The position numbers and the translations under genes were made by a program. The notes under the pieces were generated by a model. It was given only the letters and a program-made list of their open reading frames with translations. It made no database searches and was not told the DNA's origin. Shown in pieces: positions 45,527 to 51,776 of a DNA stretch of 64,000 bases (within the stretch, counting starts at the first letter, position 1; the number at the start of each line of letters is the position of its first letter). The stretch comes from Brevundimonas vesicularis (GTDB lineage Bacteria > Pseudomonadota > Alphaproteobacteria > Caulobacterales > Caulobacteraceae), in contig NZ_JACHLJ010000001.1 of the NCBI RefSeq assembly GCF_014204545.1, positions 930,001 through 994,000 of the forward strand, written 5' to 3'.

Positions 45527-45618
45527 AAGATCACTCCAAGACGGGTCTGTGGGCTTTAACGCACGCACGAACCATTCCCGTCGACGCGGTTCCAAGAAAC
45601 CGATTTCACTTGCCAAAT

Positions 45619-45640
45619 CATATAAGGATATCTTTATATG
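45619..45640 (+). promoter_or_regulatory. 22-bp palindromic operator before the methionine operon
   Basis: A near-perfect palindrome with arms CATATAA and TTATATG around GGATATCT matches in 10 of 11 base pairs. It ends five bases before the start of the ArsR-type regulator. Size and AT-rich arms fit ArsR-family operators, so autoregulation of this regulator-metF-metH operon is likely. Confidence 0.7.
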
Positions 45641-45645
45641 AGCAT

Positions 45646-46605
45646 ATGAGTTTGTCCGCCGATCAGACTGTCGAAGCCCTCCGCGCCGCTGGCGAACCCA
45701 CCCGTCTGCGCCTTCTGTCGCTGCTGGCGGGTGAAGAGCTGTCGGTCATGGAAATGTCCCGCATCCTGGATCAGAGCCAACCCCGGGTGTCGCGCCATCT
45801 AAAGCTGATGACCGACGCCGGGCTTATCGAGCGCTTTCCCGACGGCGCCCGCGTCTATTACCGCCTGTCACACGACGCCCAAGCGCGCCGGCTGATCGAC
45901 ACGGTGCTGGACATCCTGGCCGACGACGCCGGCGAAGCTGATCATCGGCGTCTGGACGAAGTCCGCAAGGACCGCGAGGAAGCCGCCGTCAGCTATTTCG
46001 AACAGGTCGCGCCCCAGTGGGACCGCCTGCGTTCGCTCTACGTCAGCGAAAGCGCTGTCGAGGCGGCGCTGGAAAAGGCTGTGGGGCCCGGCCCCTTCGA
46101 ACGCGTCGTCGATCTGGGCACGGGTTCTGGCCGGATGCTGACCCTGTTCGGCAAGAAGGCCAAGATGTCGGTCGGGCTGGACCTCAGCCAGAATATGCTG
46201 AACATCGCCCGCACCAACGTCACCAAGGCGGGTGTGGAGCAGGTCGAACTGCGCCACGGCGATATCTTCGCCACCCGCCTGCCCGCCGCCAGCGCCGATC
46301 TGGTGATCGTGCATCAGGTGCTGCACTACCTGTCCGATCCGTCCGCCGCCGTGGCCGAGGCCGCCCGCCTTGTCAGTCCGAACGGCCGCCTGGTCATCAT
46401 CGACTTCGCCCCGCACGACTTCGAACATATGCGCGAGGCGCATCAGCATCGCCGCCTGGGCTTCGCCGACAGCGAGATCAACGGCTGGCTGCTCGACGGC
46501 GGCCTGACGCCATCGGCCCCGATCGCTCTGCCGCACGACGCCGAGGGCCTGACCGTGACCATCTGGACGGCGGAACGCCGCGTCCAGGACAGAAAGACCG
46601 CCTGA
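45646..46605 (+). CDS. ArsR regulator fused to SAM-dependent methyltransferase (SahR-like)
   Basis: The 319 aa protein has an N-terminal winged HTH (EALRAAGEPTRLRLLSLLAGEELSVMEMSRILDQSQPRVSRHLKLMTDAGLIERFPDGARVYYRL, about 8-75) and a class I methyltransferase domain with motif I VVDLGTGSGRML (D156-G162) and SADLVIVHQVLHYLSDP. This fused architecture next to metF and metH is that of regulators sensing S-adenosylhomocysteine (SahR group) in proteobacteria; ligand and enzymatic activity are inferred. The ribosome binding site is weak and the palindrome reaches almost to the ATG. The stop shares one base with metF. Confidence 0.85.
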   Translation: MSLSADQTVEALRAAGEPTRLRLLSLLAGEELSVMEMSRILDQSQPRVSRHLKLMTDAGLIERFPDGARVYYRLSHDAQARRLIDTVLDILADDAGEADHRRLDEVRKDREEAAVSYFEQVAPQWDRLRSLYVSESAVEAALEKAVGPGPFERVVDLGTGSGRMLTLFGKKAKMSVGLDLSQNMLNIARTNVTKAGVEQVELRHGDIFATRLPAASADLVIVHQVLHYLSDPSAAVAEAARLVSPNGRLVIIDFAPHDFEHMREAHQHRRLGFADSEINGWLLDGGLTPSAPIALPHDAEGLTVTIWTAERRVQDRKTA

Positions 46606-47561
46606 TGGCCTCCTCCGCCTCCCTCAACCTGGCCGATGCCCGCGCCCTGCTGCTGTCGCCGCTTGGCCCCGTAGCCCGCGCCGGATCGAACCGCGACGCC
46701 GTGCGAGTCTCGTTCGAATTCTTTCCGCCCAAGACCGATGAGGCCGAGGCCAATCTGTGGAAGGCGATCCGCCGTCTGGAGCCGCTGAACCCCGCCTTCG
46801 TCTCCGTGACCTACGGCGCCGGCGGTTCGACCCGCGAACGGACCCACCGCACAGTCCAGCGCATCATCACCGAGACTTCGCTACGACCCGCCGCCCACCT
46901 GACCTGCGTCGAGGCCAGCAGGGAAGAAGTCGACGAGGTCATCGAAGGCTACAAGGTGATCGGCGTCGATCACATCGTGGCCTTGCGCGGCGATCCGCCC
47001 GGCGGGGCTGGCATCGGCGGCGTCTATCAGCCGCGCGCCGACGGCTATGCCAACGCCACCGAACTGACCGCCGCCATCAACCGCATAAGCGGCTTCGACG
47101 TCACGGTCGGCGCCTATCCCGAGCGCCATCCCGAAAGTCCGTCCATCGATCACGACATCGAGGTGCTGAAGGCCAAGGTTGACGCCGGAGCCACCCGCGC
47201 CGTCAGCCAGTTCTTCTTCGACATCGACGCCTTCCTGCGCTTCCGCGACCGGGTGCGGGCGGCGGGCGTCACTATCCCCCTGATTCCCGGCGTCATGCCG
47301 GTGTCCAACTTCGCCGGCCTGACCCGGATGTGCGGCGCCTGCGGGGCCAGCATTCCCGACTGGCTGAAGGCGCATTTCGACGGCCTGGACGACGATCCTG
47401 AGACCCGCAAACTGGTGGCCGCCTCGGTCGCCGCCGAGACCTGCGCGCGTCTGCAGGAAGAGGGCTTCTCGGACTTCCACTTCTACACTTTGAACCGCGC
47501 CGACCTGGTTTATGCGATCTGTCGCGTTCTGGGCGTGCGCGAGACGGCGGCAGCCCAATGA
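46605..47561 (+). CDS. metF: 5,10-methylenetetrahydrofolate reductase
   Basis: Reduces methylene-THF to methyl-THF, the methyl donor for the methionine synthase encoded next to it. The 318 aa FAD enzyme has VRVSFEFFPPKTDEAEANLWKAI (catalytic Glu in SFEFFPP), FVSVTYGAGGSTRERT, HLTCVEASREE, ALRGDPPGG, GAYPERHPES and AVSQFFFDIDAFLRFRDRVRAAG. It overlaps the regulator stop (TGATG) and the metH first-part start (ATGA), so its translation is locked to its neighbours. Confidence 0.96.
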   Translation: MASSASLNLADARALLLSPLGPVARAGSNRDAVRVSFEFFPPKTDEAEANLWKAIRRLEPLNPAFVSVTYGAGGSTRERTHRTVQRIITETSLRPAAHLTCVEASREEVDEVIEGYKVIGVDHIVALRGDPPGGAGIGGVYQPRADGYANATELTAAINRISGFDVTVGAYPERHPESPSIDHDIEVLKAKVDAGATRAVSQFFFDIDAFLRFRDRVRAAGVTIPLIPGVMPVSNFAGLTRMCGACGASIPDWLKAHFDGLDDDPETRKLVAASVAAETCARLQEEGFSDFHFYTLNRADLVYAICRVLGVRETAAAQ

Positions 47562-48652
47562 CCGCTTCTCTAACTCGGGCAGAACGCATTGCCGCCCTGC
47601 ATCAGGCGGCCAAGGAACGCATCCTGGTCCTCGATGGCAGTTGGGGCGTCATGATCCAGCGTCGGGGGCTGGACGAGGCCGACTTCCGCGCCGACCGCTT
47701 CGTCGCCGCCAAAGGCTATGACGAGAAACACCAGATGAAGGGGAACAACGACATCCTCTGCATCACGCGGCCCGATGTCATCGCCGACCTGCACGACCAG
47801 TATTTCGCCGCCGGCGCCGACATCAGCGAAACGAACACCTTCTCGGGCACCACCATCGCTCAGGAGGACTACGCCCTGGACGCCCAGGCGGTGTGGGACA
47901 TCAATCTGGAGGGCGCGAAACTGGCCCGCGCCTCGGCCGACCGCTGGACCGCCATGGAGCCGCACAAGCCGCGGTTCGCCGCCGGCTCCATCGGCCCGCT
48001 GAACAAGATGCTGTCGATGTCGTCCGACGTGAATGACCCCGGCGCCCGCAGCGTGACCTTCGACCAGGTCTATGAGGCCTATCGCCATCAGGTGAAGGCG
48101 CTGAACCAAGGCGGGGTCGATCTCTATTTGATTGAAACCATCACCGACACGCTGAACTGCAAGGCCGCGATCAAAGCGATCAAGGACTTGGAAGACGAAG
48201 GCATGGACGTCCTGCCGATCTGGATTTCGGGCACCATCACCGACCGTTCGGGCCGCACCCTGTCGGGCCAGACGGCCGAAGCCTTCTGGAACAGCGTACG
48301 CCACGCCAAACCCTTCGCCGTCGGCTTCAACTGCGCCCTGGGCGCCGACCTGATGCGACCCTTCATCGCCGAGCTGAGCCGCGTCGCCGACACTCTGGTC
48401 GCCGCCTACCCCAACGCCGGCCTGCCCAACGCCATGGGCCAGTACGACGAAGAACCGCACGAGACCGCCCACTTCATCGAGGAATGGGCCGCCTCGGGTC
48501 TGGTCAATATCGTCGGCGGCTGCTGCGGCACGACGCCGGATCACATTCGTCACGTCGCCGAAGAGGTCGCGCCGCTGAAGCCCCGCGTCATCCCGGAACG
48601 ACCGGTGGCCTTGCGGCTATCCGGCCTCGAACCGTTCGAGATGGTGGCGTGA
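47558..48652 (+). CDS. metH: Methionine synthase, homocysteine-binding part (split MetH)
   Basis: Provides the zinc-dependent homocysteine S-methyltransferase domain (residues 1-340 of MetH) as a separate 364 aa protein: [53 protein letters not shown], and the zinc ligands C259 (GFNCALG) and C322/C323 ([10 protein letters not shown]). It must pair with the pterin/cobalamin part encoded at 49110-51776. Start overlaps the metF stop by ATGA; its own stop overlaps the following unknown gene by GTGA. Confidence 0.93.
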
Positions 48653-49109
48653 GCAAGACCGGAGAGGTCGAGGCGTTCGAGCGGTTGCGTATCGAACTCC
48701 GAAAACTAGCAGCAAGCAGCCCCGCCTGCGTGATCGATCACGACTCTGAGAAATATATTCTTCTCCGAATGGGGGACGGCGGCGACATGTCTCTTCTGGA
48801 GGCGCGTCTGGGTAGCTACGAGCTAGGCCTGAGTTGTGGCCAAGGCCTAGACTTCAAACGTCTCCGAAATGATCACGACGTCGAAGAGGCACTCGCTCTT
48901 TGCGACGCGGTCATAGCAGGCCGAGGCGTCTCTGTCAGCGGTCCCAAAGGCTATCCGACACGCTCCTGGATATTCCTGGATAGTCGGGGCTTCAAAAAAG
49001 CCGTCACGACCGGTGCTGTATCCATCATGTCATGGCGCCGCGCCCGGTCGATCAAGAAAAGCCTCTGGCAGCGAAACAGGTTGCCTATCCTCGTAGTTGA
49101 GTCCGCCTG

Positions 49110-49110
<1 letters not shown>
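48649..49110 (+). CDS. Unknown protein encoded between the two metH parts
   Basis: The 153 aa protein matches no family I recognise. It starts GTGAGCAAG at 48649 inside the metH first-part stop and ends in TGATG shared with the second part, so it sits in translational register with both. No signal peptide or membrane segment; mixed charged helices first ([16 protein letters not shown]), then beta-like segments ([24 protein letters not shown]) and a basic C-terminal stretch ([17 protein letters not shown]). Codon use is unlike the operon: AAA, CTA, GCA, ATA, AGA-like AT-rich codons are frequent and GC is clearly lower, pointing to acquisition. A helper or regulator of the split synthase, or an unrelated hitchhiker, are both open. 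Confidence 0.75.

Positions 49111-51765
<2,655 letters not shown>

Positions 51766-51776
<11 letters not shown>

Follow-up and report, generated by a model that had tools for sequence, protein, structure and literature searches.

A variable gene slot between the two parts of split metH in Brevundimonas, with gene X as its probable cargo in Brevundimonas vesicularis

Why does a small gene of foreign appearance lie between the two parts of a split methionine synthase gene, overlapping both? In the 64,000-nucleotide stretch of B. vesicularis DNA analysed here (the window), a preliminary description made from the sequence alone had pointed to such a gene, called X below, and had set two possibilities side by side: that X bridges, regulates, or protects the two-part synthase, or that it is a cargo gene that uses the operon for its expression. 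Comparison with other Caulobacteraceae genomes leads us to favour the second in a particular form. With a probability of roughly 0.7, X is expressed cargo of an accessory-gene slot that is exchanged through its metH flanks, and in which the stop-start overlap is kept for the translation of metH-C.

Gene X within the met operon

The genes and junctions concerned are listed here.

45610..46605, + strand: fusion of an ArsR-type HTH and a SAM methyltransferase, first operon gene (PF01022, PF08241); 45610 is a mechanical ORF start
46605..47561, + strand: metF, overlapping metH-N by ATGA, a junction used as control (PF02219, E 4.2e-92)
47558..48652, + strand: metH-N, which borders the slot on the left and encodes the homocysteine S-methyltransferase half of the split enzyme (PF02574, S-methyl_trans, E 4.9e-93)
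48649..48652, + strand: left slot junction, a 4-nt overlap (GTGA) shared by the metH-N stop (TGA, 48650-48652) and the GTG start of X (from sequence)
48649..49110, + strand: gene X, 153 aa, GTG start, present cargo of the slot (from ORF reading, family profile, selection, and composition)
49108..49112, + strand: right slot junction (TGATG), in which the X stop (TGA, 49108-49110) has one base in common with the metH-C ATG (from sequence)
49110..51776, + strand: metH-C, which borders the slot on the right and encodes the pterin, B12, and activation domains of the split enzyme (PF00809, PF02607, PF02310, PF02965)

The operon thus runs ArsR-methyltransferase, metF, metH-N, X, metH-C, and every junction overlaps (TGATG, ATGA, GTGA, and TGATG, respectively). 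Pfam assigns the homocysteine half and the pterin/B12/activation half of MetH to separate genes, as expected of a split MetH, and metH-C carries Pterin_bind, two B12-binding domains, and Met_synt_B12. The ArsRM protein of Brevundimonas sp. M20, which has the same make-up and place as the product of 45610-46605, is reported in the accessible part of its description to methylate arsenite and to bind its own promoter (PMC10190100).

All the features for which X had been singled out were found, including its 153 codons and its GTGA and TGATG overlaps with the two metH halves. Its GC content is 0.576 and its GC3 0.636, compared to GC3 values of 0.843, 0.852, and 0.876 in metF, metH-N, and metH-C, and the codons AAA, CTA, GCA, and ATA are each commoner in X. 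This composition supports the earlier impression that X was acquired, and the unbroken series of overlaps bears out the view of it as an exact fit in the translational chain. No match to a sigma-70-like promoter of its own was found for X, and its placement is best read as one for expression with the met operon.

Between X and its close homologue in genome G025 (67% identity), dN is 0.229 and dS 1.67, which is near saturation. The resulting dN/dS ratio is 0.14, and ratios of about 0.09, 0.12, and 0.31 were obtained for three other pairs of the family, some of them with dS near saturation, while a fifth pair was identical. On this evidence X is kept as a protein by purifying selection, and the low ratios disfavour the possibility, raised at the outset, that X is an insertion scar. 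The range of 0.09-0.31 in four pairs and the confident model of a Caulobacter family member (see below) together suggest that X is a translated protein.

The G025 homologue also lies between metH-N and metH-C, downstream of a methyltransferase gene, and distant homologues with the motif LAxxDA..G...LxxRG occur among the slot ORFs of other genomes. A profile of eight members gave 14 strong matches (E<=4.3e-19) in 390 Caulobacteraceae genomes, 10 of them in Brevundimonas and 4 in Caulobacter, and each of the 14 sits in the interval from metH-N to metH-C; this holds for the best nine candidates at most in each genome, so that copies elsewhere may have escaped. All 14 also have a GC3 below that of their flanks. 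Four further matches were marginal (E 0.004-0.0084). The preliminary description would have taken X for a hitchhiker had its homologues been found only outside met operons; the opposite is the case, and because of it a link between X and MetH keeps some plausibility. One genus match (G063, E 2.5e-4) runs antisense to two long ORFs, which we take to be murE and murF, and was discarded as chance. Across the class, a 12-member profile found X in 1 of 337 genomes, the window's own (best 11 candidates or fewer per genome), and in none of the 76 genomes of sister family f2 (best 50 candidates or fewer).

Library searches gave no name to the family. X had no match in Pfam or PADLOC, its best E values against NCBIfam and PHROGs were only 0.11 and 0.56, and none of 12 family members matched Pfam at E<=1. 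Plasmid and phage records yielded no tblastn match at E<=1, the 13 pattern matches in viral contigs were unrelated to X, and the best match of the profile among PDB sequences had an E of 0.027. The model of the window protein reached a pLDDT of 70 and a pTM of 0.70, and that of a Caulobacter member, with values of 86 and 0.83, shows a confident alpha/beta fold. Foldseek found no match at E<=0.001 in PDB or viral models. The best VIA-align Z scores were 7.0 for the window model and 5.8 for the Caulobacter member, and the frataxin and Mediator rows among the best may reflect a common arrangement only. The immunity protein CdiI (6cp9_H) aligned to the window model with Z 5.1 and rmsd 2.8 over 64 residues, without a significant Foldseek match, and to the better Caulobacter model with Z 2.9 and rmsd 3.1 over 63 residues. 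The X family is unnamed and diverse, and it matches no described family.

Contents and turnover of the slot

Both the metH-N stop and the metH-C start were located in 121 Brevundimonas loci, comprising the window and 120 of the 126 other genomes with a metH match (G053, G069, G070, G092, G095, and G126 were left out, and four more genomes gave no metH match). The gap between them is at most 1 nt in 37 loci, 13-48 nt in 3, and 127-2268 nt in 81. Hence the expectation that the parts of a split MetH are usually adjacent is not borne out here, as 81/121 loci hold an insert of at least 100 nt. Seven loci (L024 and L124-L129) have a metH-N that ends in TAA and is followed directly by the in-frame GTG of metH-C, with one stop codon between the halves; this single-stop split was also seen in the first nine rows of the Brevundimonas metH match listing.

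The slot is present in Caulobacter too. Among 64 of the 74 genomes with a metH match (G201, G207, G222, G238, G248, G258, G260, G266, G270, and G273 being left out), it is empty in 1, short in 3, and filled in 60, where the metH-C start is uncertain in L166 and L195. Gaps of 1141-4865 nt separate metH-N from metH-C in eight Asticcacaulis loci, and gaps above 1 kb also occur in sister family f2 of the same order (e.g., G735, G743, and G774). Two other junctions of the operon served as controls. The ArsR-methyltransferase/metF junction was scorable in 114 of the 121 Brevundimonas loci and was free of large inserts in all 114. The metF/metH-N junction, scorable in 116, exceeded 40 nt in 19, a count that is perhaps too high because the metH-N start was extrapolated from the alignment. 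In L014, L041, L078, and L102 the metF/metH-N junction is widened by about 850 nt. Judged from these gaps, Brevundimonas has a hypervariable gene slot at the metH-N/metH-C junction, where core-gene flanks stay constant, accessory genes differ, and turnover is high; variation at the two control junctions is much smaller.

The Brevundimonas occupants include frequent short ORFs derived from palindromic repeats, a class-I methyltransferase, DUF4259, DUF6882, and DUF6508 proteins, the X family, a PIN protein with a small partner, an amine oxidase with a RidA-like protein, an alpha/beta hydrolase, and singletons. Seven kinds of cargo are common to the slots of Brevundimonas and Caulobacter (X, DUF4259, DUF6882, the methyltransferase, the PIN pair, the amine oxidase pair, and a PNPOx-like protein), and the Caulobacter slot also holds D-Ala-D-Ala-ligase-like genes and a 127-aa family without a Pfam match. 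In 131 Brevundimonas genomes, all 6 matches to DUF4259 and all 4 to DUF6882 lie in the slot. The methyltransferase was found at 18 places in these genomes, 11 in the slot, 6 elsewhere, and 1 (G069) unplaced, and the slot copies include all 8 with at least 71% identity. Ten cargo proteins had no PADLOC match, and Pfam found no integrase or transposase among 25 cargo representatives and seven neighbouring genes of the window.

Several single loci deserve mention. The PIN-domain gene and its conserved small upstream partner, in a toxin-antitoxin-like arrangement, occupy the slot in L074, L079, and L118 of Brevundimonas and in L165, L176, L202, and L207 of Caulobacter. In L103 and L114, the slot ORF reproduces the metH-C start (MRPTFINVG) at its own beginning and continues with repeat-like sequence, as if a repeat had entered metH-C and its start had been duplicated. 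The remnants in L090 (16 nt) and L121 (13 nt) form 7- and 6-codon ORFs that join metH-N to metH-C, although at this size most shuffled stretches are coupled too, by chance; the remnant in L090 resembles the tail of a 52-aa palindromic-repeat ORF.

How these contents are distributed was followed on a quick MetF + MetH-N tree of the 121 loci, in which four rows had under half of their columns filled. Slot content, scored in seven classes, requires 55 changes compared to a mean of 65.3 after shuffling, and none of 200 shuffles was as low; it is thus weakly tied to the tree and yet not random, which implies some vertical descent. X requires 8 changes for 10 carriers (as low in 5/500 shuffles), DUF4259 6 for 6, and DUF6882 4 for 4. 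The window's five nearest relatives by path have an empty slot, the best of them being 98% identical in MetF + MetH-N, and X is therefore not needed for MetH. Content turns over quickly while both flanks stay. Identity near the slot is lower in pairs with different content, a weak effect that label permutations reach in 33/1000 cases, and in the single, noisy case of the window and its empty relatives, identity is 0.87-0.89 in the bin 49110-49260 and 0.88-0.97 in other bins. The simplest account, which these comparisons support modestly, is that fitted slot genes pass between strains together with flanking metH sequence.

Fit of the inserts and competing readings

We called an insert coupled if a chain of ORFs connects the stop of metH-N with the start of metH-C, each start lying 8 nt before to 2 nt after the previous stop. 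Coupling was found in 72 of the 84 Brevundimonas inserts that measure 10 nt or more, compared to 8.5 for shuffled inserts, and the shuffled window insert gave a coupled chain in 0/200 trials. By size, 32/33 Brevundimonas inserts of 10-300 nt (8.4 expected), 38/44 of 300-1000 nt (0.25 expected), and 2/7 above 1000 nt (0.01 expected) are coupled; the corresponding Caulobacter values are 4/14 (0.4 expected), 20/21 (0.89 expected), and 9/26 (0.01 expected). The shortest inserts reach coupling easily by chance. Full coupling is absent from 6/44 gene-sized and 5/7 larger Brevundimonas inserts, and from 10/14 short and 17/26 long Caulobacter inserts. Read from their sequences, gene-sized inserts are, a few exceptions aside, co-oriented ORFs that overlap both the metH-N stop and the metH-C start.

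Among filled Brevundimonas slots, the left 6-mer is GTGATG in 38/81 and CTGATG in 4/81, and the right border is a 1-nt overlap in 38/81. Over the Brevundimonas junctions as a whole, the second codon of metH-C is AGA in all 32 with a 4-nt overlap (NTGA) and CGN in all 65 with a 1-nt overlap, so that arginine is kept at this position under both overlap types; the codon choice is partly forced, because an NTGA overlap dictates that A follows the start codon.

Could X nonetheless act on MetH? It might be a MetH-specific modulator, chaperone, or guard that binds the two-part synthase, as a bridge or as a protection of its cobalamin chemistry, with the other slot families as its functional substitutes, confined to the slot for that reason. 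The restriction of X, DUF4259, and DUF6882 to the slot (14/14 strong homologues, 6/6, and 4/4 matches) is the strongest fact against a function independent of MetH, and the overlap of cargo ORFs with both halves in most cases points in the same direction. We nevertheless consider a MetH modulator unlikely. The 37/121 Brevundimonas loci without an insert carry both halves (scored as presence of metH-N and metH-C, not as full-length integrity), and the PIN, amine oxidase plus RidA-like, alpha/beta hydrolase, and D-Ala-D-Ala-ligase-like occupants have no evident link to MetH; repeat-derived peptides among the occupants and the low GC3 of all 14 X members also speak against this role. Because empty loci keep both halves and others hold unrelated genes, bridging, regulation, or protection of MetH by X is not needed, and of the two possibilities set out in the preliminary description, it is the cargo gene that we favour. 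A broader version, in which the junction is a dedicated Caulobacteraceae exchange site to which X, DUF4259, DUF6882, and others are obligately tied because they would act on the split synthase or be under its control, as swapped, unrelated MetH guards or modulators in start-to-stop cassettes that keep the translational relay, strikes us as slightly less likely still.

Two further readings are more doubtful again, and about equally so. A site-specific mobile element or targeted integration could place ORF cassettes at overlapping TGATG sequences, which the counts of left 6-mers and 1-nt right overlaps and the many occupants derived from palindromic repeats would suit. However, TGATG at both ends is also expected of overlapping start-to-stop ORFs, the left border in the window lacks it, the seven neighbouring window genes that were scanned gave no integrase or transposase match, and searches of the genus met X, DUF4259, and DUF6882 in the slot alone, a pattern that a general mobile element would not be expected to give. 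Alternatively, X could be a neutral hitchhiker, inserted by chance and surviving because it left metH-C translation unbroken. X is indeed absent from the nearest relatives, slot content follows the tree only weakly, and the short repeat-derived ORFs at the same place look functionless; yet the dN/dS ratios of 0.14 for the window versus G025 and about 0.09, 0.12, and 0.31 in the other pairs, the confident fold of the Caulobacter member (pLDDT 86, pTM 0.83), and the recurrence of the family in two genera argue that X is not neutral.

Our preferred reading, X as expressed cargo of a flank-exchanged slot, would work as follows. Homologous recombination in the conserved metH genes on either side would carry slot alleles from one strain or species to another, and a gene that has once entered would be handed on as a ready-fitted, start-to-stop cassette. 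Selection would keep the stop-start overlap if metH-C is translated by reinitiation, by ribosomes that terminate on the preceding gene, and the passage of ribosomes from metH-N through the cargo to metH-C would then be the main constraint on the slot. We infer for X itself a small alpha/beta protein, made at the level of the operon, whose benefit would be its own, dependent on the lineage, perhaps protective, and outside methionine synthesis. The first entry of start-to-stop genes into the slot lies outside this account.

Comparison with known systems

Integron gene cassettes, each with an attC recombination site and served by an integron integrase nearby, are single ORFs that trade places at a fixed site, where their expression is driven from outside. 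The slot shares these traits; it differs in that no integrase was found among the neighbours scanned and in that coupled ORFs fill the slot, leaving little room for attC. Orphan immunity proteins of bacterial competition systems are encoded by small, single, fast-diverging genes of odd composition, as is X. By contrast, X matches no immunity family in sequence and none significantly in fold.

Split MetH is itself known. The met operon of Brevundimonas sp. M20 is described as four genes, arsRM-metF-HMT-1-metH, with the same gene order as in the window, a split metH, and an ArsR-methyltransferase fusion in first place, and the accessible part of that report mentions neither an extra gene between the metH parts nor variability (PMC10190100). 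Split MetH is also known in Caulobacter crescentus (PMC6538847), where our assignment of two genes to the two halves is a reading of a figure legend. In roseobacters, a split methionine synthase is encoded by separate genes that evolved separately from classical MetH (PMC12478193). Both cases resemble the window in having MetH functions on separate polypeptides; the roseobacter system differs in being distributed among separate genes, and the part of that source available to us says nothing of a variable cargo slot. A further source (PMC4239095), as far as it was accessible, added nothing on split metH. In one licensed literature collection, surveyed mostly at listing level, nothing came up on a variable slot separating the parts of metH. 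Flank-exchanged hotspots and split MetH are thus already known, and for a cargo site of this kind, coupled and slot-restricted, lying between two parts of a single enzyme, we found no earlier description.

The slot, with so many insertions at a single position, amounts to a natural experiment in which the operon demands of each newcomer an unbroken stop-start relay, and it allows the role of translational coupling between the two subunits to be tested directly. It is also a place to seek uncharacterised small-protein families such as X, DUF4259, and DUF6882, which in Brevundimonas were found only there, and one may ask why cargo came to be housed within a split enzyme gene.

The closest parallel is with integration hotspots that lack mobile elements and whose content is exchanged when the core genes beside them undergo homologous recombination, as set out in the accessible part of Oliveira et al. 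2017 (PMC5635113). Like these hotspots, the slot has fixed, conserved flanks, fast turnover, no integrase seen, and content common to lineages. Unlike them, as far as that text describes them, it is set within an operon of tightly overlapping genes and separates two parts of a single enzyme; its cargo consists mostly of start-to-stop genes on the operon strand that overlap at both ends, and X, DUF4259, and DUF6882 were found nowhere else in the genus.
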